Assembly: GCF_034259205.1 (NCBI RefSeq)
Contig: NZ_CP139487.1
Location: 2,604,001 to 2,668,000 of the forward strand
DNA: 64,000 bases
Direction of reading: 5' to 3'
DNA from: Peredibacter starrii
GTDB lineage: Bacteria; Bdellovibrionota; Bacteriovoracia; Bacteriovoracales; Bacteriovoracaceae
Shown here in pieces: positions 37,734 to 53,367 of this stretch; the first letter of the stretch is position 1; the number at the start of each line of letters is the position of its first letter. Position numbers and translations under genes: made by a program. The notes under the pieces were generated by a model that was not told the origin of the DNA, did not search any database, and was given only the letters and a program-made list of their open reading frames with translations.

Positions 37734-38597
37734 TTATTTTTTTGGCTTAAACCAGCAAAGAGGACGAAGGCCAACTTTAGCACCAGTTGAACCATGACAA
37801 GTAGCTCTTACTTCATCACTTTGAGAAACGTCTTCGTTGAATGATTTTTCACAAAGAGCGCCCTGGAAGTATGTATCTAGACGACACTGGTGAGCTGGGT
37901 GAGCATCATCAGTTCTTGAAACTACGTTTGTGTCCGGAGTTTCGAATTTACCTTCTGGCTGATTACGAAGAGCTGCGAATAGACCCGCAACCGATACACC
38001 GGCCATACCACCACGGATACAGATCGCGCGGTCGTCTTTGTTAGGCCATGCCTTAGCACATGCCTGAGAAAGAGTTGTTGGAACGTTCATGCGAGAGATC
38101 GCTTGAGCGTTGTTATCGTTAAGGAACGCCTTACGAAGACATTTTAGAGTTGCGAAGTAATCAGACTGACCTTCGTTAGATGCCCAACGGTTGAAAAGGT
38201 TTCCAACTTTTGGAGCTCCACCAAGGTGGTGACCGATTTCGTGACAAAGAACAAGAGCGAAACCATCTTCAGTGATTGTGCTGTGACGAGCAAGACCACC
38301 GTACATATTTACAATCCAACCACCCATACGAGTAGCGTTTGCGTTTACAGTAGCATCTTCCCACTTACGGTTAATAGTAAGACGACCACCCATTTGCGAT
38401 ACGATTGGAGCGTAGATCACTTCAAGTTTGTCGATAACAGCATTGAATTGAGCTTCAGTTAAACCACCAGCTAGCTTTGAACCAACAGGGATTGATAGGT
38501 CGTTTTCAGGAAGGAATCCGCCTTTGCCGTCTTCCGTACAGGCAAATGATGGAGCCGCTAGGGCCATAGATAGAACGAGTGCAGTTAGAAATTTCAT
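37734..38597 (-). CDS. Secreted HExxH metalloprotease-like protein, paralogue 1
   Basis: A 287-residue protein with signal peptide 1-19 (cleavage after SFA, next residue Cys). The zinc site is CHEIGHHLGGAP (H119, E120, H123). NEGQSDYFA (E142, D146) follows 18 residues later, the E-x-x-x-D pattern of gluzincins such as M48-like families. Conserved cysteines (CTEDG, CHE, KCLR, QACAKAW, CIRGG, QCRLDTYFQGALC, ATCHGS, PLCWF) imply disulfides. AAGGAG precedes the ATG. I do not recognise a named family. The two neighbours upstream are clear paralogues sharing all these motifs. Confidence 0.72.
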   Translation of the reverse strand: MKFLTALVLSMALAAPSFACTEDGKGGFLPENDLSIPVGSKLAGGLTEAQFNAVIDKLEVIYAPIVSQMGGRLTINRKWEDATVNANATRMGGWIVNMYGGLARHSTITEDGFALVLCHEIGHHLGGAPKVGNLFNRWASNEGQSDYFATLKCLRKAFLNDNNAQAISRMNVPTTLSQACAKAWPNKDDRAICIRGGMAGVSVAGLFAALRNQPEGKFETPDTNVVSRTDDAHPAHQCRLDTYFQGALCEKSFNEDVSQSDEVRATCHGSTGAKVGLRPLCWFKPKK

Positions 38598-38681
38598 GTG
38601 TGTTCTCCTTAAGATTCATCTAAATCTCTTCAAGGCACAATTCTAGAAATCTCCGTGTTAAGACGTCAGCTTTATTATCGA

Positions 38682-38691
38682 AATGTAAGAA
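38682..38691 (-). promoter_or_regulatory. TTCTTACATT element upstream of metalloprotease 1
   Basis: Minus-strand TTCTTACATT, about 85-95 bases before the start codon. A matching or near-matching element stands at a similar distance before the other two paralogues. Confidence 0.35.
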
Positions 38692-38696
38692 GATGT

Positions 38697-38723
38697 AATA
38701 AAGGCCGGGGATTACCCGGCCTT
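38697..38723 (-). terminator. Terminator of metalloprotease paralogue 2
   Basis: AAGGCCGGG / CCCGGCCTT nine-base stem with a five-base loop, then TTTATTA on the minus strand, 30 bases after the stop codon. Confidence 0.85.
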
Positions 38724-38752
38724 TGCGCGAAAAGATGAATTTTGATTTAAAA

Positions 38753-39646
38753 CTATCTAGCGTTAGCTGTTGGCTTGAACCAGCAAAGTGGACGTAGACC
38801 AACTTTATCGCCAAGTGAACCGTGACATGTACCAGTTACTTCTGAAGTAGCAGATACGTCTTCGTTCATTGATCTGTCACAAAGTGAACCTTGGAAATAT
38901 GTATCAAGGCGACACTGATAAGCCGGGTGGTTATCATCAGTTTTTGTCACAACTTTTGTGTCAGGTGTCTCAAACTTTGGCTCAACAGTTGAGTTACGAA
39001 GCGCCATAAAAAGTCTTGAAACTGACATACCGGCCATACCGCCGCGGATACACATATAATAGTCAGCACTCCAAGTGTGGGCACTGCTACAAGCTCTTCT
39101 TAGTGTAGCTGGAACTGGCATCATATTACGAACGATGGCCTGGTTGTCATCGTTTTGCCAAACTTTACGTAGACACTTTAGGTTTGCGAAGTAGTCAGAC
39201 TGACCTTCGTTAGATGCCCAAGAAGATGCCCACTGAGAAGCTTTTCTTGGAGCTCCACCAATGTGGTGACCAAGCTCGTGACATACAACTAGTGCGAAAC
39301 CATCTTCAGTGATTGTCTCGTGACGAGCAAGACCACCGAACATAGATACTTTCCAAGTTTTACCCATTTGCTGAGCGTAAGCGTTTACAGTTGGATCATT
39401 CCAGTTTCTTTCAACTAGAAGGTTACCGCCGTAGTTCGATACGATTGGAGCGTATAGAGTTTCAACTTTTGTAATAACGTCATTGAACTGCTGCTCAGAA
39501 AGACCACCCATGCGGCCTTTTTGGTTGGCATAAATTTTCATGTTGTTTTCTGGTACGAAACCTTCAGTACCATCTGGTGTACATGCCATAACTGGGTAAG
39601 CCACTGTAAGGGCAATAGCTAGCAGTCCTTGCTTGAAACTTTTCAT
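38753..39646 (-). CDS. Secreted HExxH metalloprotease-like protein, paralogue 2
   Basis: A 297-residue protein with a signal peptide (cleavage near VMA before Cys22). It shares PDG.EGFVPENN, GGLSEQQFNDVI, GGLARHETITEDGFALVV, CHELGHHIGGAP (zinc site), NEGQSDYFA (likely third ligand) and the C-terminal cysteine-rich block with QCRLDTYFQGSLC with its neighbours. AAGGAG lies eight bases before the ATG. Residue identity to paralogues 1 and 3 is high by eye around the catalytic region and lower between, as expected for duplication followed by divergence. Confidence 0.72.
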   Translation of the reverse strand: MKSFKQGLLAIALTVAYPVMACTPDGTEGFVPENNMKIYANQKGRMGGLSEQQFNDVITKVETLYAPIVSNYGGNLLVERNWNDPTVNAYAQQMGKTWKVSMFGGLARHETITEDGFALVVCHELGHHIGGAPRKASQWASSWASNEGQSDYFANLKCLRKVWQNDDNQAIVRNMMPVPATLRRACSSAHTWSADYYMCIRGGMAGMSVSRLFMALRNSTVEPKFETPDTKVVTKTDDNHPAYQCRLDTYFQGSLCDRSMNEDVSATSEVTGTCHGSLGDKVGLRPLCWFKPTANAR

Positions 39647-39727
39647 TTAAATCTCTCCTTAGAAAATCACTAGGTCTTAACCTAATTCTGACATACTCAG
39701 ATATTGAGTTACTACAGTGAAAGACTA

Positions 39728-39747
39728 AAGTAAGAATTTGTTGGATG
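39728..39747 (-). promoter_or_regulatory. Shared upstream motif of metalloprotease 2
   Basis: GTAAGAATTTGTTGGAT (39731-39747, plus-strand reading) matches 16 of 17 positions with 40807-40823 ahead of paralogue 3, and both lie about 80-100 bases before the start codon. This suggests a common promoter or regulator site. Confidence 0.45.
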
Positions 39748-39782
39748 ACATGTTTTTTTTAGGGACAATTTTAGTCAAGAAT

Positions 39783-39802
39783 GTGTACAGCGACGTGTAC
39801 AC
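39783..39802. promoter_or_regulatory. GTGTACA inverted repeat
   Basis: Seven-base arms GTGTACA / TGTACAC with a six-base spacer, between the terminator of paralogue 3 and the shared motif of paralogue 2. Operator-like; the binding protein is unknown. Confidence 0.35.
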
Positions 39803-39807
39803 AAAGG

Positions 39808-39840
39808 GCAAAAAAAAAGCCAGGTCTTTCGACCTGGCCT
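39808..39840 (-). terminator. Terminator of metalloprotease paralogue 3
   Basis: Minus-strand GCCAGGTC / GACCTGGC stem closed by a GAAA tetraloop, flanked by A-runs and followed by at least nine T, 18 bases after the stop codon. Confidence 0.93.
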
Positions 39841-39856
39841 TTGGAGGAGAAACTAA

Positions 39857-40729
39857 TTACTGAACTGAAGGTTTAAACCAACAGCGAGGACGTAGACCAA
39901 CTGTGTGGCCTGTAGAACCGTGACATGCGCCAGCTACTTCAGAATCAGCTGTGAAATCTTCGTTGTAAGATTTTTCGCAAAGTGCACCTTGGAAATATGT
40001 ATCAAGTCTACACTGTGTAGCAGGGTGGCTATCAGATGTTGAAGTAACTTGTTTTGGATCCGGAGTATCAAACTTTGGAGCTTTCATTGACCAAGCTAGA
40101 GCAGCAAATAGTTTTGCTACAGAATCACCGGCCATACCGCCACGGATACAAAGAGCGCGATCAGCAGCTGACTTCCAATTTTTGTTACAAGAATCAGTTA
40201 GGAACTGAGGAACTTCCATGCTGCGAACGATGCGAGCGTTATCTTCGTTCATCCAAACACGGCGAAGACATTTTGTAGTTGCGAAGTAGTCAGCTTGACC
40301 TTCGTTAGATGCCCAATCGTCACCTGCGTAACGAGGAGCTCCTGCGATGTGGTGACCGATTTCGTGACATACAACAAGTGCGAAACCATCTGGTGTGATT
40401 GTCTTGTGACGAGCAAGACCACCGAACATAGAAACTTTCCAAACATTTCCTTCTTGTTCAGCGTAAGCATTAACTGTACCGTCAGTCCATTTACGAACGA
40501 CTTCTAGTTTACCGCCGTAAGAAGAAACGATTGGGGCATACACGTCAGAAACTGTATCAATAACTTCGTTAAATTGAGCTTCAGAAATTGTGTTGATGCT
40601 TTTAGCGTCTACAGGGATAAAAAGGTTATTTTCAGGAACGAAGCCTTCAGAACCATTTTTTGTGCAGGCAAGAACAGGTTGAGATGCGATAAGGGTTGCG
40701 AGGAGCAATCCTACTGATAGTTTTTTCAT
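39857..40729 (-). CDS. Secreted HExxH metalloprotease-like protein, paralogue 3
   Basis: A 290-residue protein with signal peptide (cleavage before Cys22). It has the same architecture as the two genes downstream: EGFVPENN, GGLARHKTITPDGF, CHEIGHHIAGAP, NEGQADYFATTKCLR, CIRGGMAG, QCRLDTYFQGALC and a terminal CWFKP. The third-ligand block reads E-G-Q-A-D, closest of the three to the ExxAD pattern of M48-type gluzincins. AAGGAGG precedes the ATG. Each of the three genes has its own terminator and so is a separate transcription unit. Confidence 0.72.
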   Translation of the reverse strand: MKKLSVGLLLATLIASQPVLACTKNGSEGFVPENNLFIPVDAKSINTISEAQFNEVIDTVSDVYAPIVSSYGGKLEVVRKWTDGTVNAYAEQEGNVWKVSMFGGLARHKTITPDGFALVVCHEIGHHIAGAPRYAGDDWASNEGQADYFATTKCLRRVWMNEDNARIVRSMEVPQFLTDSCNKNWKSAADRALCIRGGMAGDSVAKLFAALAWSMKAPKFDTPDPKQVTSTSDSHPATQCRLDTYFQGALCEKSYNEDFTADSEVAGACHGSTGHTVGLRPRCWFKPSVQ

Positions 40730-41828: not shown

Positions 41829-43265
41829 ATGAGAAACAAGATTGTTTTCTACCTCAATGGTAATCGTCATGAAGTGGGTGCTGAAAAATCATCCATGATG
41901 CTCGCTGATTTTCTTCGCTATGAAGAAAGTCTCACTGGGACAAAAATCGTATGTGCCGAAGGTGACTGTGGTGCCTGTTCGGTTCTTCGCTACTTCCCGC
42001 ATGTCCCTGGAACTGACACTCAAAACTATCTACCGATTAATTCTTGTATCACACTGGTGGGCCAGTTAGATGGCTCAAGTGTTGTGACAGTGGATGCACT
42101 CAAAAAAGAAGGCATCCTTCATGAAACACAACGGGCCGTGGTTCAGTGTCACGGTTCACAATGTGGATTCTGTACTCCGGGATTTGTGATGGCCCTCACA
42201 GGTCTGGTGGAAGAAAAACTTGAGAAGAAAGAAAAAACCATTAACGCTCAAGAGGCAAAAAACTGCCTGACCGGAAACCTTTGTCGCTGTACGGGTTATC
42301 AGGGAATCATCAATGCGGCGGTTGATATTGATCTCAAGAAATGTGAAAGCATCAAGAAAAGATACTATTCAGAAAAACAAGAAGTAGATCTGCTCAAGAC
42401 CTTCAATGAAGGAGTAAAATTGGAGGGAGAAGACTTTTCTTTCTTCGCTCCTAAGACCCTGGAAGAAGCGATCAACTATCTCATGACTGATCCGGAAATT
42501 CGAATTATAGGCGGAACCACTGATCTGGGTGTGGTTCATAATAAGCGTAAGATTAAAATCACCAAGGTCCTGAGCCTTCATCTTATTCGTGATCTCTATA
42601 ATGTCACAGAAAAGAACGGAGAAGTTCATCTGGGTGCCCGAGTGACCCATTCTGAGTTCAGGCACTTTATTAAAGATAAGATGCCGGAGTTTGCAAACTA
42701 CCTGGATATCTTTGCTTCTCCTCAAATTAAAAATGTGGGTACGATTGTAGGTAACATCGCCAACGCTTCTCCGATTGGTGATACGCCTCCAGCTCTTCTT
42801 GCCCTCAACGCTGAAGTTTGTATTATGGGGCCACAGGGAAAACGTGAAGTTCCTCTTTCGAAGTTCTTCCTCGCTTATCGTAAAACTGATCTTAAGCAAG
42901 GTGACATCGTGACCGGCATTAAGTTTAAAATCCCATCAAAATCTAACACTGTTCGTTTCTATAAAAACTCTAACCGCAAAGACCTGGATATCTCGGCAGT
43001 AAACCTCGCGGTCAATCTTGAATGGAAAGATGATTCTAAAAAAGAAATCAAAGACATCATTATCGCTGCCGGAGGTGTTGCCGCCACTCCCCTGCGCTTT
43101 GTGAAAACCGAAGAGTTCTTGAAGAATAACTTTGACATCAATCTTGCGGTGAAAGAGCTTCACGCGGAATTTAAACCATTAAGTGATGTAAGGGCCTCAA
43201 GCAGTTACCGACATGTGCTGGTAGAAAATCTCTTCCGCCGCTTCTTCTCGGAGGTGGGCGTATGA
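41829..43265 (+). CDS. xdhA: Xanthine dehydrogenase small subunit (2Fe-2S and FAD domains)
   Basis: A 478-residue protein. The ferredoxin-type cluster has CAEGDCGAC; the second 2Fe-2S domain has CGFCTPGF and NLCRCTGYQGI. The FAD domain (about 200-475) shows IIGGTTDLGV and NVGTIVGNIANASPIGDTPPAL. It carries electrons from the molybdenum site to FAD and NAD. Length and domain order match the Rhodobacter XdhA type. AAGGG precedes the ATG, and it overlaps xdhB by four bases. It is the first gene of an xdhABC operon. Confidence 0.96.
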   Translation: MRNKIVFYLNGNRHEVGAEKSSMMLADFLRYEESLTGTKIVCAEGDCGACSVLRYFPHVPGTDTQNYLPINSCITLVGQLDGSSVVTVDALKKEGILHETQRAVVQCHGSQCGFCTPGFVMALTGLVEEKLEKKEKTINAQEAKNCLTGNLCRCTGYQGIINAAVDIDLKKCESIKKRYYSEKQEVDLLKTFNEGVKLEGEDFSFFAPKTLEEAINYLMTDPEIRIIGGTTDLGVVHNKRKIKITKVLSLHLIRDLYNVTEKNGEVHLGARVTHSEFRHFIKDKMPEFANYLDIFASPQIKNVGTIVGNIANASPIGDTPPALLALNAEVCIMGPQGKREVPLSKFFLAYRKTDLKQGDIVTGIKFKIPSKSNTVRFYKNSNRKDLDISAVNLAVNLEWKDDSKKEIKDIIIAAGGVAATPLRFVKTEEFLKNNFDINLAVKELHAEFKPLSDVRASSSYRHVLVENLFRRFFSEVGV

Positions 43266-45679
43266 GTTTACCACACGACTATGCTCATACCCATGTATGC
43301 GGAGAAAGTGAATTCGTAGATGATCGTCCGATCATGAAAAATGAACTTTTCGTCGATGTCTTCTTTTCAACTCGCGCTCACGCTCTTATTAAGCGCGTGG
43401 ACTTCACAGAAGTCTTAAAACAGCCTGGAGTTGTGGCAGTTTTCACGGGCCACGATTTCGCTCATAATCTTTGGGGCACAATCTTTAAGGACCAACCGAT
43501 TCTTGCCACTGATAAGGTTCAGTACGCTGGTGAAGGTATTGCTTTAATTGTTGCGACGTCACTCGAGGCCGCGCAAAGAGCAAAACATAAAACCATTATT
43601 GAATATACCGATCTCGCCGCTGTGATGAGTATTGGTGAGGCCCGCAAGTTGGAGTCTTTTATCATCCCTGCCCGCACGATTGAGCGAGGTAATGTTGATG
43701 AAGAGATGAAGAAGGCCCCTCATACGCTAGAAGGCGATATCGTGATTCAAGGTCATGATCACTTTTATCTCGAGAGTCAGGTATCGATTGCTTATCCATT
43801 AGAAGATGGTCAAATTGAAATTCATTCCTCTTCTCAACATCCGACTGAAACTCAGCACGTAGTGGCCCATGCTCTGGGACTTCCCGATAACGATGTGGTC
43901 TGCCAGGTGAAACGTATGGGTGGAGGCTTTGGAGGCAAGGAATCCCAGGCCGCGCCTTTTGCTGCCATGGCCGCTCTTTGTGCCGTGAAACTAAAACGAC
44001 CTGTGCGCATTTGCCTTACTAAAGATGACGATATGATCATGACGGGGAAACGAAACCCGTTTGAGAATGAATACAAAGTGGGCTTTGATGACCAAGGCAG
44101 AATCCTTGCCATGGATGTTAAGCTCTTCTCTGATGCCGGCGCTTATGCGGATCTCTCGACTTCCATCATGGAGCGAGCGATGCTTCACTCGGACAACTCT
44201 TATTTTATTCCTCACATGCGGGTGGTGGGACAGGTTTGCAAGACCAATCATCACTCACATACTGCTTTTCGCGGTTTCGGTGGGCCCAAGGGAGTGGCAA
44301 CTGCCGAGAAAATTATTGAAGCGATTGCGCACTATCTTAAAAAAGATCCCATTGATGTTCGTAAGATCAACTTGTACTCAGATGTTGATGGTCGAAATAC
44401 CACTCACTATGGGCAATTGGTCGAGAACAACGTGCTTGATCGCCTCGTTAACGAGCTAGAAAAAAGATCTGACTACAGAAATCGCCGTAAAGAGATCACA
44501 AAGTTTAATAAAGAGAACAAAGATTTTGTCCGCGGAATGTCTCTTACTACTGTGAAGTTTGGGATTTCATTTACCACAAGATTTTTAAACCAAGGTAATG
44601 CTCTCGTCATCATTCATAATGATGGAACCCTTCAAATCGCCACGGGTGCGACTGAAATGGGCCAGGGTGTGAATGCCCGAATTGCTGAGATGGTCACAAC
44701 GGAGTTTGGACTTCCAAGAAATTCTGCCCGTGTGATGCCAACGAGAACTGATAAGAACGCCAATACCTCACCCACTGCTGCTTCTTCGGGAACTGATATT
44801 AACGGTGCGGCAGCACTTCTCGCCGCTCGTAAGATCAAGAAGCGCCTAAGTGAACTTGCTCTGAAGCTTTTAGACATCCCGAAAGACAAGTGGGCCTCAA
44901 AGACCGCCGGTCTTGGAACTCAACCAGAAGTAATGCTTGATACTCCAAACCTGGATGAGAATGATCCAAATGCCGGTGCAGAATGGGAATCAGGGGTCGC
45001 TAAATACTTTGAGATGGAATTTAAAGACGGTTGGGTCTTCCATCCAAAACACCTGGATAAAAAAATTGAATTTAAGTATCTCATCTTAGAGGCCTACTTA
45101 AACCGAGTCTCTCTCAGTGATTATGCTTTCTATAAAATCCCGGGCATCGAATTTAATAAGATGACCGGCCAAGGTGACGCCTTCTTGTATTTCACTCAAG
45201 GGGCCGCTTGCTCAGAAGTAAGTCTTAATCGTGATACCGGTGAAGTTAAAGTCCTGCGAACCGACATTCTGATGGATCTTGGTCGTCCGGTGAATCATGA
45301 TCTTGATGTGGGCCAGGTAACGGGCGCTTTCATTCAAGGTCTGGGTTGGGTCACAACAGAAAACTTGTTCTACAATGATCAGGGTCTGTTACTATCACAC
45401 GCTCCAAGCACTTACAAAATTCCTAACGTTCAAGATACTCCACGCGTGTTTAACGTAGAACTCTTAGAGAATGATGAAAACTACGCAAACGTTCGCGGTA
45501 CCAAAGCAGTGGGTGAACCACCACTTCTTTTGGCCCTTAGTGCCTGGACCGCAGTGACGAATGCTCTCTCGCATCTACCACACTATCAAGTGGACTATCC
45601 GAAGATCAGAATTCCGGCCACGTCGGAAAATGTCCTTCGTGAGATCATGCCTGAGAGATTTAAGGAGTGGGAACGATGA
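43262..45679 (+). CDS. xdhB: Xanthine dehydrogenase large subunit (molybdopterin-binding)
   Basis: An 805-residue molybdoenzyme subunit that hydroxylates hypoxanthine/xanthine to urate. Landmarks: RMGGGFGGKESQ (pterin-contact loop), an AFRGFGGPKG equivalent, MGQGVNARI, and the active-site glutamate in VGEPPLLLALSAW. It is cytosolic and forms the (AB)2 enzyme with XdhA. It overlaps xdhC by four bases (ATGA), so insertion of the sulfurated cofactor by XdhC is probably coordinated with synthesis. Confidence 0.96.
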   Translation: MSLPHDYAHTHVCGESEFVDDRPIMKNELFVDVFFSTRAHALIKRVDFTEVLKQPGVVAVFTGHDFAHNLWGTIFKDQPILATDKVQYAGEGIALIVATSLEAAQRAKHKTIIEYTDLAAVMSIGEARKLESFIIPARTIERGNVDEEMKKAPHTLEGDIVIQGHDHFYLESQVSIAYPLEDGQIEIHSSSQHPTETQHVVAHALGLPDNDVVCQVKRMGGGFGGKESQAAPFAAMAALCAVKLKRPVRICLTKDDDMIMTGKRNPFENEYKVGFDDQGRILAMDVKLFSDAGAYADLSTSIMERAMLHSDNSYFIPHMRVVGQVCKTNHHSHTAFRGFGGPKGVATAEKIIEAIAHYLKKDPIDVRKINLYSDVDGRNTTHYGQLVENNVLDRLVNELEKRSDYRNRRKEITKFNKENKDFVRGMSLTTVKFGISFTTRFLNQGNALVIIHNDGTLQIATGATEMGQGVNARIAEMVTTEFGLPRNSARVMPTRTDKNANTSPTAASSGTDINGAAALLAARKIKKRLSELALKLLDIPKDKWASKTAGLGTQPEVMLDTPNLDENDPNAGAEWESGVAKYFEMEFKDGWVFHPKHLDKKIEFKYLILEAYLNRVSLSDYAFYKIPGIEFNKMTGQGDAFLYFTQGAACSEVSLNRDTGEVKVLRTDILMDLGRPVNHDLDVGQVTGAFIQGLGWVTTENLFYNDQGLLLSHAPSTYKIPNVQDTPRVFNVELLENDENYANVRGTKAVGEPPLLLALSAWTAVTNALSHLPHYQVDYPKIRIPATSENVLREIMPERFKEWER

Positions 45680-46449
45680 CCATTTGGGAAGCTTGCCAGA
45701 AATTAACCAGTGAAGGCACATCATTTGTGATGGTCACTATGACTGGAGTACGCGGCTCTGCCCCTCAAGATATTGGGGCGAAAATGCTAGTGACTAAAGA
45801 CGGATTATTCTATGGCACCGTTGGTGGTGGTAAGGTTGAGATGGCCTCCATCAAGAAATCTCAGGAAATTCTTAAGGGTGAACAATCACCTCCAGAGTCT
45901 GTGGTATGGAATCTTCAAAAAGACATCGGCATGAGTTGCGGCGGAGAAGTTGTGATGCTGTTTGAACACCATCATCAATCGAACTGGCCCATCGTGATCT
46001 TCGGTGCGGGCCATGTGGCGCAAGCGCTTACTCGCATTCTTTCTAAACTTAATTGTTCCGTCACTTGTGTCGACTCTCGTGAAGAATGGGTGGCCAAACT
46101 CGAAGGTGTAAAAGGCATTCATCACCCGACTCCAAAAGAAATGGTGAAAGAGTTTAGTCCTCATTGCTATTTTATGAGTATGACCATGGGACACGCTCAT
46201 GATGTACCTATCCTCCATGAAATCGCCAAACACGCACCTGATTGCCCTTATATTGGAGTGATTGGAAGTGATGTGAAAGGGATTAAGATCAAGAAGGAAC
46301 TGAAAGACCTTGGTGTTTCGGATGAATTTTTGAAGAAGCTTCGTGTTCCAATGGGGCTTCCAATTGGAACTAATCAGCCTTATGAGATTGCGATTAGTAT
46401 TGTGGCGGAATTACTTCAAGTTCGAGATGCAGCTTTGGAGAAAACATAG
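45676..46449 (+). CDS. xdhC: Xanthine dehydrogenase accessory protein XdhC
   Basis: A 257-residue chaperone that binds and helps sulfurate the molybdenum cofactor before insertion into XdhB. An N-terminal XdhC/CoxI domain (RGSAPQDIGAKML, GTVGGGKVE, MSCGGEV) is followed by a Rossmann domain starting FGAGHVAQAL, ending with PMGLPIGTNQPYEIAISI. The ATG at 45676 overlaps the xdhB stop and has GGAG eight bases upstream; a GTG at 45667 is the alternative. Confidence 0.94.
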   Translation: MTIWEACQKLTSEGTSFVMVTMTGVRGSAPQDIGAKMLVTKDGLFYGTVGGGKVEMASIKKSQEILKGEQSPPESVVWNLQKDIGMSCGGEVVMLFEHHHQSNWPIVIFGAGHVAQALTRILSKLNCSVTCVDSREEWVAKLEGVKGIHHPTPKEMVKEFSPHCYFMSMTMGHAHDVPILHEIAKHAPDCPYIGVIGSDVKGIKIKKELKDLGVSDEFLKKLRVPMGLPIGTNQPYEIAISIVAELLQVRDAALEKT

Positions 46450-46488: not shown

Positions 46489-47370
46489 ATGATTGATCAG
46501 AAAAGAAAAATTGAAATTTTGGGAAACTATGGAGCTCTGCTGTCGGTAATCGAAGTCGGTCTTGGTTCTTTCCTACATTCTTTATACATACCATTTGCGG
46601 GACACTTGCTCTCACTCAATCAAGGCTATTTGCTTTGTCGAGTGGCGATCCTTTCCGAGGACAGAAGTCTTACCTATGGAGTCTCAAACATTGCAGCAGT
46701 GTTAAAATCTCTCTCTCCGGCGGGCAAAAAACTTGGACCGATGCTGAGTCTCTCAATGCAAGGGCTATTGTTTTATCTCGGAACGGTGGTTGGCATTAAT
46801 CCAATTGGTCTTTCACTCGGAATGATCCTTCTGTCATTCTGGGCCTTCGTCCAACCACTAGTGACCTACTATTTATTCTTTGGAAATGAAATCATCAACG
46901 CCGCCGAGTTCTTGTATCAGAAGACCTTTCAATATCACGGCATCAAGGCCGAGAATCTTTTATGGCTCTTCATTGGTGTGATTGTAGTTAAAGTATTTGC
47001 GGGGATTATTCTCGCCATCCTTGCCTGGAGAACCCAAGGAAAGTCTGATTACCAAGACAGTTTTGTGAACTATGCAAAACCAAAAGGTCCTGAGTCAGGC
47101 GATCCTCTGATCCTTGCCCTGAAAGATCTCCTTAAACCAATCTTTCTCATCTCGCTTGTAGGAACAGCGGTTTTTCTCTACTTCTCGCAACATCAAATCG
47201 CCGAGATCATCTGGTATCTCATGCGACCACTCGCGATTGGATTTATGTTCTTCTATTTTTCCAGGACTCTGACATTAGATAAATGGCTTTTGCGTTTAGA
47301 AAATGGACGCTTCCATGCTTTCGGTGAGGGCTGCAAAGTGGCCTTAGAAAAAATCAGGAAAGTTTTTTAA
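46489..47370 (+). CDS. Polytopic membrane protein of unknown function in the xdh operon
   Basis: A 293-residue protein with about six to seven hydrophobic helices. Distinctive conserved-looking stretches are GLGSFLHSLYIPFAGHLLSLNQ, here at residues about 26-47, and SPAGKKLGPMLSLSMQGLLF at about 76-95, with a following LLSFWAFVQPL. The small-residue-rich helices are reminiscent of ECF-type substrate-binding membrane components, but that is only an impression. It follows xdhC by 39 bases on the same strand and is convergent with the P-loop gene (17-base overlap). A transporter for purine or a cofactor precursor is one guess. Confidence 0.6.
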   Translation: MIDQKRKIEILGNYGALLSVIEVGLGSFLHSLYIPFAGHLLSLNQGYLLCRVAILSEDRSLTYGVSNIAAVLKSLSPAGKKLGPMLSLSMQGLLFYLGTVVGINPIGLSLGMILLSFWAFVQPLVTYYLFFGNEIINAAEFLYQKTFQYHGIKAENLLWLFIGVIVVKVFAGIILAILAWRTQGKSDYQDSFVNYAKPKGPESGDPLILALKDLLKPIFLISLVGTAVFLYFSQHQIAEIIWYLMRPLAIGFMFFYFSRTLTLDKWLLRLENGRFHAFGEGCKVALEKIRKVF

Positions 47371-47776: not shown

Positions 47777-48429
47777 GGTCTCAGGGCCTCAACATCATTC
47801 ATGAACTTTGGTGACTTCATGAGGGCCTCAAAAATAAGTTTCCCCATGATTTTCCCTGCTACCGTATCAAGCGGATGGTGAGCTCCACCAATCACGCGAC
47901 CAAGAGATACCTCCTCGCCTTTTTTAATAAGCGCTTCAGCTCTCTCAGGATAAAGAATCGCAAATGTACGAGAGGCAACGTAAGCAATTGTGGTGTGACC
48001 ACTTGGATAAGAAAGTGAGCGTGGCATCTTCACACAAGGAACAATGCCTACATTACGGTTGTAAGGACGAATTCTTGCCCATTCATTTTTCTTAATGCGC
48101 GAGAAGACCATCACTTCTTTGAAGAGAATTTCCTGAAGAGCGACTAACTTTTCCGCTTCTTCAGTTGTAAGTGGCCCATAGGGAGCACCAAAAAAAGAAG
48201 TCGCAAAACCTTCGGCCTCAAATTGCGCCTTAGCACAATCGGCCGGAGTACGAACTTGCTGCCAACGAAGAACTTCATTTAAATCAGCAAGATCTTCCGG
48301 AGAACCTTCCAAAGGAGGGGCCGGAACGAGATTTAAATCAACACTCTCAAGTGTTAAATAAGTCAGTTGCTCCTGAGCAAAGGCCGGGAGTAGAAATAAA
48401 AAACTTAGGACAAGAATTAATTGCTTCAT
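47773..48429 (-). CDS. Secreted PAP2-family acid phosphatase (class A-like)
   Basis: A 218-residue protein with signal peptide 1-18. The PAP2 tripartite site is KKNEWARIRPY (K-x6-RP), YPSGHT and GRVIGGAHHPLD, the last ending in the nucleophilic histidine and its aspartate. Class A acid phosphatases of this length hydrolyse phosphomonoesters including nucleotides in the periplasm. It overlaps the large fusion gene by four bases. Within a urate operon, the simplest reading is dephosphorylation of scavenged nucleotides so their purines can enter the pathway. Confidence 0.88.
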   Translation of the reverse strand: MKQLILVLSFLFLLPAFAQEQLTYLTLESVDLNLVPAPPLEGSPEDLADLNEVLRWQQVRTPADCAKAQFEAEGFATSFFGAPYGPLTTEEAEKLVALQEILFKEVMVFSRIKKNEWARIRPYNRNVGIVPCVKMPRSLSYPSGHTTIAYVASRTFAILYPERAEALIKKGEEVSLGRVIGGAHHPLDTVAGKIMGKLIFEALMKSPKFMNDVEALRP

Positions 48430-51400
48430 TTTGAGAATACCTTAATACGGTTCATCCCCCCACAAGGCCATGCCTGGATCTTAATTTGTGAAAAGATTTC
48501 CGGGCGATTTATCTCAAAACCTTGGATATGACCAGCAAACGCCTTAACATTTTGTTTAGGGATGATCGTGACCCATTTTCCCTCTGTCAGACCAAGAAGA
48601 GAGAACTCATAAGGGTTATTATTTACATAGTAGGTATAGTCCGTTTCCACGCGATGAATTTTAGCGGGTTTAGCGAGCTGAATGGTGACTTCTTCGCAAC
48701 CACCGAGCTTACGACTTCTCGCTGATTCAAGGCCATCAAACATATTGATCGGCCCAAATGGAGAAATCACCTGAGAGGCAGGACTATAGTGCTCGTTCGT
48801 GGCCTTAAGCATTTTCGCTCCTAAGGCAACACTGGCATTATTGAACTCATCCCCTTCATGAAGCGAAAGCCAGTTCTTTTTAATCTCCGCGTCCGTCACT
48901 TCGTACTTAATATTAAGTGGCTTTTTGGTCTGGGGAATCTTCTCTTCATACGAGCGCATCTGACCGTCAAAAGTCGCCTTCTCTTTTTCAGGAAGATCCG
49001 TATAAAGACCCAGACGTGTAAAACCTCCGTCCGGATATTGAGAAGCGCGGATTTGAGTCACGACACCAGTTTCTTTTGGAAGTTTAATTCTCACTTCTGA
49101 GTGACCTTCCATTTCCATCTTAGGCACGAGCTCAGTCCATTCTCCATCAACTAATCCTTCGATCTTCACCGCCGGAGCATGATTACCGAAATGATACTTC
49201 GTAGATAGAAGAACGTAGTTAATTTTGGCCGGTTTCTTTAACTCAAATGTTAAGGTATCGACACCCGCTTGATTGTGACGAACAGTTTCCCAACTATCCA
49301 TCACCTTACCTTGTTTGCCGAAAAGTTCCGGATCAAACTTAGGAAGATGATCACTGAAGAGATTGTCCGCGCGAGCAAAAAGTTCATTCGAGACATCCAC
49401 CACCGTTGAACCAACTCCCAAGTTGAAAGGAGCAAGTGGATCCATCGGACCTCTTTCGATAATTGGCTCTGGACGAGTCTTTTCAAAAGCATCGAACACA
49501 AGGTTTTTATAACCCATGTTCACAATCTGCTCTTGAGGGATTTTATCTGCAGTGAAAGTCGATTTAAACTTCGAGAAATCAATTCCCTGAAACTCGAGTA
49601 CTTTCAAAATGTCCTGAGTGGCTTCAGCATTGAAGAGCACACCCTTAAGATCAGCATTGGCCAGTGCCACCACACCTTTGCCACGATCTGGACCAAAGTA
49701 GCAGTGTAAAAATATACAACGGAAGCCATCATTGGCCCCCTGGTGAATCATGAACTTGTTTGGGCCCGCCTCACCAATAAACACACCCAAACCCATCTTA
49801 ACACCCATGAACTTCATGCATCCCTTGTCAGTACCATGAAGCATAAGTCGAGCAGTATCATGAGAAATAGGGCCCGAGCCGTTTAGGTTCCAGTAGGCCT
49901 CTTCCATATGTTCCAGAAATTTTGCCATAGCGGCCGCTGTTCCCATCGAACCAGCAGCAAAGGCCGGGAAAATCTTGCGAGTCCCTTCGATTTCTTCTCC
50001 GTTATCTTTATATCCGTGAGCGTAATCGACATTCGGAAGTGTTTCTTGTTGGAAAGAAAAGTCTTTCATTCCTAATTTATCTAAGAATGGACGAGTCAGA
50101 TCAAAGATCGATTTTTTCTCCAGCGTCTCAATCAGATGCTCAAGAACTAAGAAACCTCCACCTGAGTATTGAAATTTCTCACCGGGAGTATTCACGACGC
50201 GAACTGGTTCATAACCGTATTCAGCGTTTCCTTTTAAGAATTCCGAAATCTTCGGCATCTTCCGATTGGCCGGAACTCCATTCACGTAATGAAGATTTAA
50301 AGCACAGTGACTCATGAGATGAGCAATTGTCACCGTTGGATCGAGATTCAAATCTGGAAGAAAATCTTTCACAGAGGAATTTAGGGCAATGCCTTTCTGC
50401 TTAAAGTATTCAATGGCGAAAACACTTCCTACGGTTTTACTTAAAGAGGCCATCTCAAACCAGGTAGAGGTCTTGGCACTTCCAAACACAATATTCTGAT
50501 GCCCTTGACCTGTCATGATGGTCACTTGAGCATCTTTGATTCCGTGCTTTTTATAAGCATTCTCTAATCGAGAATAAAGATCATTCAGAGGATGCCCCTT
50601 CATACGCTTCTCAGTGATTTCCCAAAGAGCATAGCGAGCATTCTCAATTTCCTTCTCTTCAGGATTATTGATGCGCTCTTTGAGAAGAGCGAGGAGTTCC
50701 TTACCGGACTTGCCTTGGGCACTCACGAGAAACTTCATTCCAAATTTTGCCAGATACTGAGCCCCCAATTCACGCAGTTCCTGACGTATAGATTCATCTT
50801 CTGTCAGGACCTTTGATTGTTCAGAGCTTGCCATCTTATCCAGGGTCTTCTTGTTTTCTCCAATGTCACCGTGAAAGGAAGCGGCCTCTAAAATATCATT
50901 CTTAGTAAATGACTTCACCAGAGCTTCACACATCTTAGCGTCCGCTGTTGCAAGAGCGGCCTTTCCCGAGGCGAACTTCATTGATCCACAAATCTCAAAG
51001 AAGTAATTAAAGCGTTTGATATAAGAACTGATCTTAAACTTCTCCGGATCCATTTCAGTCACAAACTTCCATGGGTCCTGCGCACTTCGTACTGCCGGAA
51101 TGGTGAAAGGCAGGAACAATTGAGTGGCAAATTCCACCGGTTCAGGGTCCGTCATGAGTTTAATCATGAGATTCATCGCCACCGGATACCACTTCTCGGT
51201 TCGCTCATCCCACTTCACTTGCACGATCTTTTTATCGTTAGATTTATCCTTGCGAATAAAATTTAACTCTTCATGAGCAATCTTCAAAAACTCTTCAAGT
51301 TTAAAGCGCCCATGACGAATCTCATGCCACACTTCCCAGCGCGAGCGCTCTGCAGTCGCCAAATCATCCATGACTCTTACCGGAGTATTAGCAACGAGGG

Positions 51401-53048
51401 CCGGTAGGGCCACGCAACCATTTCCAGATAACCAGTCAGTGATGTACTGAAGGGACTGGAAAACGTTATAGCGGATTTCATCCGGGTGATTATTGGCAAT
51501 GAAAGTCGATTCTTTAAGATCGGCCACAATCAGTGAACGAGCATACATGGGATCATTTTTATCCAGACCCTTAATATCCGGCCCGTGAATAAAGTCGATG
51601 ATCTCTTTGTGATACTTTTCATCCAGAAGTGACTTCACCAGAGTTTCAAGTTTTGATGAATTACCATTCTTATGGATCTTCCAGGCCTCCACAAAGGCAA
51701 GCCCCAGGCGCACGAAGTCCGGGTGAGCGACCCAAAAGCCTGAGAGATCACGCTTCATCTGGGTGATTACGTCACGGATATAACCTTTGATCGTCACTTG
51801 ATAAGAAGGTGAACGAAGATCATTTGAAGTTGGTAGAATGCCATACATTCCACCAACTTTGATTCCGCCACGAGAGCCTACTGCTTCGGCAAGTAGATCG
51901 TGTGAGGCCTTAATGTATTTAATCACAATGTCCGGATCGGCCTTAACAGGGATGCGGTAATTTGAATCTTCTTTGAAGAGACGTGCGGTACTTGCGAGAT
52001 AATCGTGCCAGCCAAGAGAAGCACCCACAAAGTATGGATACAACTCATCCATAATTTCATGAGCACGGAAAACCGCACGTGGGTTCTCTAGCACAATCAT
52101 GAGACGAATGCTTCCTACTGCATAAGTTGGATAAGTCTTCTTCAAAAGCTTTTCCGCCGCTTCCAGCATAATTCGGATGTATCTCGCTTCTTCTTCGTTC
52201 TCAAGTTTTGGCACATAGAAGGCCAGGGCCTTTTCATTATGCCAATTACGGAAGAAGTGAAGAGCAAAATCATAAAGATGTAATGGGATCGGTTGATCTT
52301 TGTAAAATAGGAAGAAGCACGGAAGTGCTAGCCCTGGAAAACGTTTAATTGGTAAAGAAAGTTTTTCTTTCTCGAGTTCATACTTTTTACCATTTTCTTC
52401 AAGAGAAAGATTTCCATCTAAACACTTTGTAAGATTCACCCCCGCAGAAATTAAATCTTCACGTAGAGGAGTTTTAGAATCCTCATCATCCGCTCCCCAC
52501 TTAGGGAGAGATTCGTGAGTGGCAAGAAGGTCACGTACGATCTCCGGCTCATCTTTAAGCTTTCGGTGATAGGCGTTCATGGCATTGATTGAAAGCTTCG
52601 CGGAATCAGGTGGTCCAAAAAGTGTTACATGTGGGCCACGTAAGAATTCAGGGATGTTCGCGATGGGTTTTCCACCGGGACGAGCATAGTTAGGAGTCTT
52701 AGGTCCAAAGACAATACGACCTTCGCCGTCTTCGAGTCCCAGAACCGTTTTATAATCATTTGATAGATAATCGCGCTTAAAGTCTCGATTGAAAGTTCCC
52801 ATGGCCTTCACGCGTTCATCAATAAATTTACGATCGCGGTTACGGCGTTTAAGCACAAGATTCAACTCGTCCTTAACTGATTCATAGAGTTCGCATAAGA
52901 AGCGCAGAGACTCAGTGGATTCCAGTCCACCCGACTCTCCTACTTGCACTAAACCGTCCGTTCCCGGCACTGGTTTTGCGGCCCTTAGAAGATGGGCCTT
53001 AATCTCAGGAGAAATATAATCATCGTAATATGGAATTTCTGATTTCAA
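48426..53048 (-). CDS. Four-part purine-degradation enzyme: malate synthase - OHCU decarboxylase - serine hydrolase - allantoicase
   Basis: One uninterrupted 1540-residue frame. Residues about 1-610 resemble malate synthase A, with metal/catalytic candidates E321 (IVLENP), D349 (GWHDY) and D562 in MDDLATAERSR. The catalytic arginine is not certain (R236 region). Residues about 670-815 match OHCU decarboxylase (FHGDIG at 725-730, then AKFGMKFLVSAQGKS). Residues about 820-1155 are a beta-lactamase-fold (PF00144-type) hydrolase: S868-x-x-K871, Y961-S-G963, H1102-Q-G1104. Residues 1205-1352 and 1395-1540 are two allantoicase repeats (DSWETVRHN, FGNHAPAV; second repeat MFDGLESARSR). There is no signal peptide, so it is cytosolic. 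The start is TTG with GAGGA seven bases upstream, one base after the HIU hydrolase stop. No internal break in frame is seen. Confidence 0.9.
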   Translation of the reverse strand: MKSEIPYYDDYISPEIKAHLLRAAKPVPGTDGLVQVGESGGLESTESLRFLCELYESVKDELNLVLKRRNRDRKFIDERVKAMGTFNRDFKRDYLSNDYKTVLGLEDGEGRIVFGPKTPNYARPGGKPIANIPEFLRGPHVTLFGPPDSAKLSINAMNAYHRKLKDEPEIVRDLLATHESLPKWGADDEDSKTPLREDLISAGVNLTKCLDGNLSLEENGKKYELEKEKLSLPIKRFPGLALPCFFLFYKDQPIPLHLYDFALHFFRNWHNEKALAFYVPKLENEEEARYIRIMLEAAEKLLKKTYPTYAVGSIRLMIVLENPRAVFRAHEIMDELYPYFVGASLGWHDYLASTARLFKEDSNYRIPVKADPDIVIKYIKASHDLLAEAVGSRGGIKVGGMYGILPTSNDLRSPSYQVTIKGYIRDVITQMKRDLSGFWVAHPDFVRLGLAFVEAWKIHKNGNSSKLETLVKSLLDEKYHKEIIDFIHGPDIKGLDKNDPMYARSLIVADLKESTFIANNHPDEIRYNVFQSLQYITDWLSGNGCVALPALVANTPVRVMDDLATAERSRWEVWHEIRHGRFKLEEFLKIAHEELNFIRKDKSNDKKIVQVKWDERTEKWYPVAMNLMIKLMTDPEPVEFATQLFLPFTIPAVRSAQDPWKFVTEMDPEKFKISSYIKRFNYFFEICGSMKFASGKAALATADAKMCEALVKSFTKNDILEAASFHGDIGENKKTLDKMASSEQSKVLTEDESIRQELRELGAQYLAKFGMKFLVSAQGKSGKELLALLKERINNPEEKEIENARYALWEITEKRMKGHPLNDLYSRLENAYKKHGIKDAQVTIMTGQGHQNIVFGSAKTSTWFEMASLSKTVGSVFAIEYFKQKGIALNSSVKDFLPDLNLDPTVTIAHLMSHCALNLHYVNGVPANRKMPKISEFLKGNAEYGYEPVRVVNTPGEKFQYSGGGFLVLEHLIETLEKKSIFDLTRPFLDKLGMKDFSFQQETLPNVDYAHGYKDNGEEIEGTRKIFPAFAAGSMGTAAAMAKFLEHMEEAYWNLNGSGPISHDTARLMLHGTDKGCMKFMGVKMGLGVFIGEAGPNKFMIHQGANDGFRCIFLHCYFGPDRGKGVVALANADLKGVLFNAEATQDILKVLEFQGIDFSKFKSTFTADKIPQEQIVNMGYKNLVFDAFEKTRPEPIIERGPMDPLAPFNLGVGSTVVDVSNELFARADNLFSDHLPKFDPELFGKQGKVMDSWETVRHNQAGVDTLTFELKKPAKINYVLLSTKYHFGNHAPAVKIEGLVDGEWTELVPKMEMEGHSEVRIKLPKETGVVTQIRASQYPDGGFTRLGLYTDLPEKEKATFDGQMRSYEEKIPQTKKPLNIKYEVTDAEIKKNWLSLHEGDEFNNASVALGAKMLKATNEHYSPASQVISPFGPINMFDGLESARSRKLGGCEEVTIQLAKPAKIHRVETDYTYYVNNNPYEFSLLGLTEGKWVTIIPKQNVKAFAGHIQGFEINRPEIFSQIKIQAWPCGGMNRIKVFSK

Positions 53049-53049
53049 G

Positions 53050-53367
53050 TCATGTTCCTCGGTAAGTCGAATAGCCGTACGGGTTTAGAAGCATCGGTAC
53101 GTGATATTTTCTTTCAGTATTCTTGATATTGAAGATGATGGGAGTATTCATGAAGAAGTGTTCTTCACCTTTAAAATAATCTTCCACCATGAATGTCAGG
53201 CGATAGACTCCTGCAACTTTCGGACAATCAAAAACAATTCTTCCGTCCGCATTGGTTTTATCCGAACCAATTTTCGTCCAAGAAGCACCTTCTTGCTTTT
53301 CCAAAGTCACGGCCACGCCTTTTGCCGCTACACCTTTTGTCGTATCTAAAATGTGAGTGCTAATCAT
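53050..53367 (-). CDS. hiuH: 5-Hydroxyisourate hydrolase
   Basis: A 105-residue transthyretin-like enzyme opening the ring of 5-hydroxyisourate to OHCU. The three catalytic positions are present: histidine in STHILDT, arginine in NADGRI and histidine in KYHVPMLLNPYGYSTYRGT. The C-terminal tetrapeptide Y-R-G-T is the family signature (usually YRGS). AGAGGA precedes the ATG. It lies eight bases after the urate oxidase gene and one base before the fusion gene, so the order of genes follows the order of reactions. Confidence 0.96.
   Translation of the reverse strand: MISTHILDTTKGVAAKGVAVTLEKQEGASWTKIGSDKTNADGRIVFDCPKVAGVYRLTFMVEDYFKGEEHFFMNTPIIFNIKNTERKYHVPMLLNPYGYSTYRGT

Follow-up and report, generated by a model that had tools for sequence, protein, structure and literature searches.

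A 64,000-nt stretch of the Peredibacter starrii genome, referred to here as the window, contains a gene whose product joins malate synthase, OHCU decarboxylase, a serine hydrolase, and allantoicase in one chain. OHCU decarboxylase (UraD) yields S-allantoin and the substrate of allantoicase is allantoate; exactly one step, that of allantoinase, lies between these two parts of the fusion. The question raised by this locus is which protein performs that step. The initial annotation had overlooked the absent allantoinase, a step most likely filled by the serine hydrolase.

Frame, domains, and neighbors of the fusion gene

The fusion gene, its parts, and the neighboring genes of urate supply are as follows:

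48426..53048, minus strand: four-part fusion gene; single frame, 1540 aa, TTG start, 49 full-length relatives
51057..53048, minus strand: malate synthase (MS) part, aa 1-664; catalytic residues R236, E321, D349, D562; from Pfam MS_TIM-barrel and MS_C, alignment to 3cuz, and invariant residues (n = 50)
50595..51056, minus strand: OHCU decarboxylase (UraD) part, aa 665-818; catalytic residues H726, E743; from Pfam, solved structures 5uou/3o7h, and invariance
49494..50594, minus strand: PF00144 serine hydrolase (BL) part, aa 819-1185, proposed allantoinase; catalytic residues S868-x-x-K871, Y961, H1102; from Pfam, invariance, fold model, Foldseek, and AllB mutual exclusion
48426..49493, minus strand: allantoicase part, two repeats, aa 1186-1540 and stop; from Pfam and yeast allantoicase 1sg3
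53050..53367, minus strand: 5-hydroxyisourate (HIU) hydrolase, directly upstream of the fusion; TIGR02962 (116 bits vs. a cut-off of 87.45) and PF00576
53376..55022, minus strand: membrane urate oxidase of the PuuD type, cupredoxin-like in its C-terminal part; PF06181, 352.6 bits
41829..43265, plus strand: XdhA, xanthine dehydrogenase (Pfam)
43262..45679, plus strand: XdhB, xanthine dehydrogenase (Pfam)
45667..46449, plus strand: XdhC, xanthine dehydrogenase (Pfam), closing the Xdh block 41829..46449

The initial annotation had described one continuous frame with four enzyme domains, and both points were borne out. The frame lies on the minus strand, a point that the initial annotation left unstated, and runs from a TTG start codon at 53048, preceded by GAGG at a distance of 8 nt, to 48426. 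In 49 other genome records it is likewise full-length and unbroken. Because this frame recurs in 50 proteins whose assemblies are unrelated and whose hosts span several phyla, the artificial joining of separate genes by assembly or sequencing, a danger named at the outset, is practically inconceivable, and a joining error was ruled out.

Pfam profiles above cut-off identified MS_TIM-barrel (PF01274) at aa 246-451 (2.4e-18, 66.5 bits vs. 26.4), MS_C (PF20659) at aa 523-643 (1.5e-11, 45.2 bits vs. 23.1), OHCU_decarbox (PF09349) at aa 703-816 (4.4e-22, 79.7 bits vs. 24), Beta-lactamase (PF00144) at aa 847-1140 (3.3e-23), and Allantoicase (PF03561) in two stretches (2.1e-43, 148.2 bits, above the gathering score). 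Together with the invariant catalytic residues, these scores ruled out spurious domain matches. The PDB matches of the parts were malate synthase A, OHCU decarboxylase, a DD-peptidase, and yeast allantoicase, the last of which (1sg3, E 4.9e-54) covered both repeats, and the UraD part could be aligned with the solved OHCU decarboxylases 5uou and 3o7h. The equivalog thresholds were missed by both the UraD part (TIGR03180, 81.5 vs. 139.4 bits) and the allantoicase part (TIGR02961, 157.7 vs. 277.9 bits), which are divergent members of their families. The motifs DSWETVRHN and FGNHAPAV had been assigned to two allantoicase repeats; two repeats are indeed present, but both motifs lie in the first, and the second carries its own: NMFDGLESARSR.

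The full-length four-part architecture was found in 50 aligned proteins, including the window protein, with identities from 76% down to approximately 41%. It recurs in other Bdellovibrionota (Bacteriovoracaceae, Halobacteriovorax, Oligoflexia, and Pseudobdellovibrio), and it was also present in several Planctomycetota MAGs and one Myxococcota MAG, so that it is shared beyond the P. starrii genome. The ten residues R236, E321, D349, D562, H726, E743, S868, K871, Y961, and H1102 were invariant in 50/50 full-length proteins, and relatives with a split or frameshifted appearance were few (L065/G021, L081). The four-part fusion is real and widely conserved, and would be a uricolytic enzyme. A search of the open-access literature for the fusion, for uricolysis in Bdellovibrio, and for novel allantoinases returned nothing relevant, and the four-part fusion is apparently undescribed so far in that literature.

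Among the relatives, the commonest arrangement was PuuD-HIUase-fusion, often flanked by Xdh genes. The planctomycete fusions were adjoined by a 303-residue gene, which in L078 encodes a cofactor-free uricase. Given these PuuD or uricase, HIUase, and Xdh neighbors, urate would be made, oxidized, and turned into OHCU beside the fusion gene. The C-terminal part of the window PuuD contains CSVHPWM and no CxxCH; it is not a cytochrome c, but looks cupredoxin-like. Whereas the cytochrome was described as invariant in the PuuD discovery paper (PMC4562309), CxxHPWM was found in 28 of 37 full-length PuuD proteins near fusions, with CxxCH in the other 9.

Next to XdhC, a predicted 293-aa membrane protein with no Pfam match is encoded at 46489-47370 (plus strand). 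A homologue (33%) at L122:4466-5353 is a neighbor of the uricolytic operon in G108, so that a part in purine use is possible. The minus strand at 37734-40729 encodes three secreted paralogues in tandem, 287-297 aa long and probably metalloproteases, that share an HExxH-like motif (CHEIGHH/CHELGHH).

The allantoinase gap and the serine hydrolase part

Allantoicase was present in 61 of the 241 Bdellovibrionota genomes surveyed, 43 with the fusion and 18 with a separate gene. The allantoinase AllB was present in 16 of the 18 separate-gene genomes and in none of the 43 fusion genomes (Fisher p ~8e-13, uncorrected for kinship, by which these co-occurrence statistics are inflated). Of the two remaining separate-gene genomes, one has an AllB cut short at a contig edge, and in the other the contig stops next to allantoicase. 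Both states occurred within the genera g97 and g87. No AllB above cut-off was found in 40 further checks of fusion genomes, PuuE was absent from all fusion genomes tested, and the fusion protein matched neither the AllB nor the PuuE models. Candidates for a hidden allantoinase in the complete window genome were rejected: the sole full-length cyclic-amidohydrolase match, at 132 bits, was dihydroorotase-like (best family TIGR00857, itself below cut-off), and the best PuuE match reached merely 27 bits.

The separate-gene operons typically had the order AllB-allantoicase-UraD-HIUase, with PuuD just upstream in L118, L119, L121, L122, and L124. The fusion therefore takes the place of that block; AllB, allantoicase, and UraD were replaced together, and AllB losses cannot each be counted as independent. 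At L121:1338-3965, PuuD and AllB are themselves fused (875 residues), a further fusion within this pathway. AllB and BL are not strictly exclusive, as the MAG G033 carries both. Its loci L111, L112, and L113 encode an AllB-UraD fusion, a BL-allantoicase piece, and a lone allantoicase repeat, together with a pair of solo malate synthases and a pair of class-V aminotransferases. In the BL piece, 3 of 18 readable invariant BL positions were changed. The cassette in G033 may be an intermediate or a product of rearrangement.

The BL part has the SxxK, Tyr, and His/Lys-x-Gly motifs of PF00144 on a beta-lactamase fold. Its AlphaFold2 model (mean pLDDT 95.9) was matched by Foldseek to esterase IS11, R61 DD-peptidase, LACTB, class C beta-lactamases, and D-amino acid amidase (E 3e-19 to 1e-16), and the threshold of the class C beta-lactamase model NF033085 was missed (30.6 vs. 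415 bits). H914, H920, Y921, N1106, and R1110 were also invariant in the 50-protein alignment, and some of these residues may bind the ureido group. In the Bdellovibrionota survey, the BL family occurred solely in fusion genes (whole, split, or contig-cut), with nothing else down to 1e-25; in planctomycetes, the next PF00144 proteins scored 3e-39 or weaker vs. 6e-141 for the fused copy. No standalone BL relatives were found in the Bdellovibrionota or Planctomycetota samples, and the nearest non-fusion relatives were ordinary PF00144 proteins lacking purine-linked domains. PF00144-type enzymes cleave amides, cyclic ones included, via an acyl-serine, and by analogy the same chemistry would open allantoin at its hydantoin ring to give allantoate. 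Since the absence of AllB tracks BL, and UraD and allantoicase flank one missing step, we infer that BL is the allantoinase. On this genomic evidence, BL is quite probably a non-homologous allantoinase of the serine-hydrolase type.

Two other roles for BL were weighed. It could be a bystander or accessory, for instance a structural module, or an esterase or peptidase that serves some other purpose, with allantoin opened by a promiscuous hydantoinase or dihydroorotase. PF00144 is indeed a promiscuous superfamily acting on many substrates, and several fusion genomes contain TIGR03178 matches of 200-290 bits, cyclic amidohydrolases that might act on allantoin. However, such matches are missing from the window genome, whose only full-length candidate is the dihydroorotase-like protein described above, and the catalytic Ser, Lys, Tyr, and His are invariant in a family confined to the fusion, which makes this explanation unlikely.

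Alternatively, BL could convert ureidoglycolate into glyoxylate and urea, with an unrecognized amidohydrolase elsewhere opening allantoin. Ureidoglycolate lyase (PF04115) was absent from all 58 genomes searched, and BL adjoins allantoicase both in the fusion chain and in the AllB-bearing G033. However, the lyase was also missing in the AllB-type genomes G032, G037, G045, and G052, so that this gap does not track BL, whereas the absence of AllB does. Moreover, ureidoglycolate decays without an enzyme, and its conversion to glyoxylate may be spontaneous. We therefore regard a ureidoglycolate-directed BL as improbable, and retain allantoin as the proposed substrate.

The malate synthase part and the proposed pathway

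The MS part matched E. coli malate synthase A (3cuz) collinearly over its whole length, with R236, E321, D349, and D562 aligned with R166, E250, D278, and D447 of the E. coli enzyme. It missed the malate synthase A equivalog threshold (TIGR01344, 140.4 vs. 594.5 bits) and belongs to a divergent subfamily. In a tree, the fused copies grouped with five solo copies in a single clade that was widely separated from the canonical malate synthase found in the same organisms. A canonical AceB-like enzyme is encoded beside isocitrate lyase elsewhere in the window genome, which ruled out the fused MS as the glyoxylate-shunt enzyme.

The low score and the distance in the tree leave room for an acceptor that differs from glyoxylate, for another acyl-CoA, or for a regulatory role. 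Against this stand the catalytic Arg, Glu, Asp, and Asp, kept in fused and solo forms alike, and the fact that glyoxylate is the product of the pathway. Furthermore, solo MS copies lie within allantoin operons: in three Desulfobulbaceae-group genomes, the solo MS is followed by (S)-ureidoglycine aminohydrolase and allantoate amidohydrolase genes (families scored for L094 and recognized by sequence in L086 and L087), and in two of the three a PuuE allantoinase is part of the same cluster. These operons, as an independent link, support the disposal of glyoxylate to malate as the role of MS, and a different role has a low probability. A wider survey of the Desulfobulbaceae phylum revealed no solo malate synthase beyond one already known.

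DUF6986 (PF22484) was encountered in AllB-type uricolytic operons (L118:9071-10477, L119:3477-4808, L124:2428-3765) and was present in 14 of 18 separate-allantoicase genomes vs. 0 of 43 fusion genomes. With its weak malyl-CoA lyase signal, it may be the counterpart of the MS part. Homology to MS was rejected, as the profile match was merely weak and local (E 0.11).

In the proposed pathway, XdhABC would make urate, PuuD would oxidize it to 5-hydroxyisourate, and the adjacent HIU hydrolase would convert the latter to OHCU. The UraD part would decarboxylate OHCU to S-allantoin. The BL part, replacing the missing allantoinase, would open the hydantoin ring via an acyl-enzyme on Ser868 (with Lys871, Tyr961, and His1102) to give allantoate. 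The allantoicase part would then release urea and ureidoglycolate, which would yield glyoxylate and a further urea spontaneously or via some enzyme outside the known set, and the MS part would condense the toxic glyoxylate with acetyl-CoA to malate. In the structure prediction of the UraD, BL, and allantoicase parts together (876 aa; pTM 0.90, mean pLDDT 92.6), the arrangement suggests a defined packing rather than loose beads, which is compatible with the channeling suggested in the initial annotation.

For the four domain assignments of the initial annotation, and for the connection of urate breakdown to malate that it claimed, support comes from profile matches, the invariant catalytic residues, the gene neighborhood, and the related operons. 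Although we infer all of the activities, that of BL above all, the multifunctional uricolytic scheme as a whole, from OHCU to malate with BL as the allantoinase, is likely. It is also fairly likely that BL represents a third, unrelated allantoinase class, a covalent serine hydrolase, within a 1540-residue protein performing every catalyzed step from OHCU to malate except ureidoglycolate breakdown. If so, a classic reaction has a new class of enzyme, recruited from the penicillin-binding/beta-lactamase fold; the ability of a large set of environmental and predatory bacteria to degrade urate with no known allantoinase is explained; and a catabolic pathway has its exit to central metabolism physically attached.

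Comparison with known systems

AllB (a cyclic amidohydrolase, TIGR03178) and PuuE (NodB-like, TIGR03212) catalyze the reaction, at the same place in the pathway, that is proposed for BL. In contrast, BL has an unrelated serine-hydrolase fold with SxxK, Tyr, and His, and would be an analogue rather than a member of either family. With R61 DD-peptidase, esterase IS11, LACTB, class C beta-lactamase, and D-amino acid amidase, BL shares the fold, SxxK, Tyr, and His-x-Gly. However, it is only 16-21% identical to solved PF00144 members, is found solely inside the fusion, has the family-specific invariant residues H920, Y921, N1106, and R1110, and is proposed to act on a new substrate. The MS part is likewise collinear with malate synthase A (AceB) and has its catalytic Arg, Glu, Asp, and Asp, but belongs to a divergent subfamily of approximately 680 residues tied to ureide catabolism instead of isocitrate lyase.

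The Bdellovibrionota operons with AllB, allantoicase, UraD, HIUase, and often PuuD and DUF6986 share their pathway, their phylum, and even their genera with the fusion, but consist of individual genes with the classical AllB and no fusion. Uricolytic fusions in NCBIfam, such as the bifunctional allantoicase/(S)-ureidoglycine aminohydrolase and a carbamoyl-amino-acid hydrolase fusion, likewise join neighboring purine steps, and PuuE-UraD and UraD-uricase are further known examples. Whereas these known fusions join about two steps, the present one has four parts and would lead from OHCU into central metabolism.
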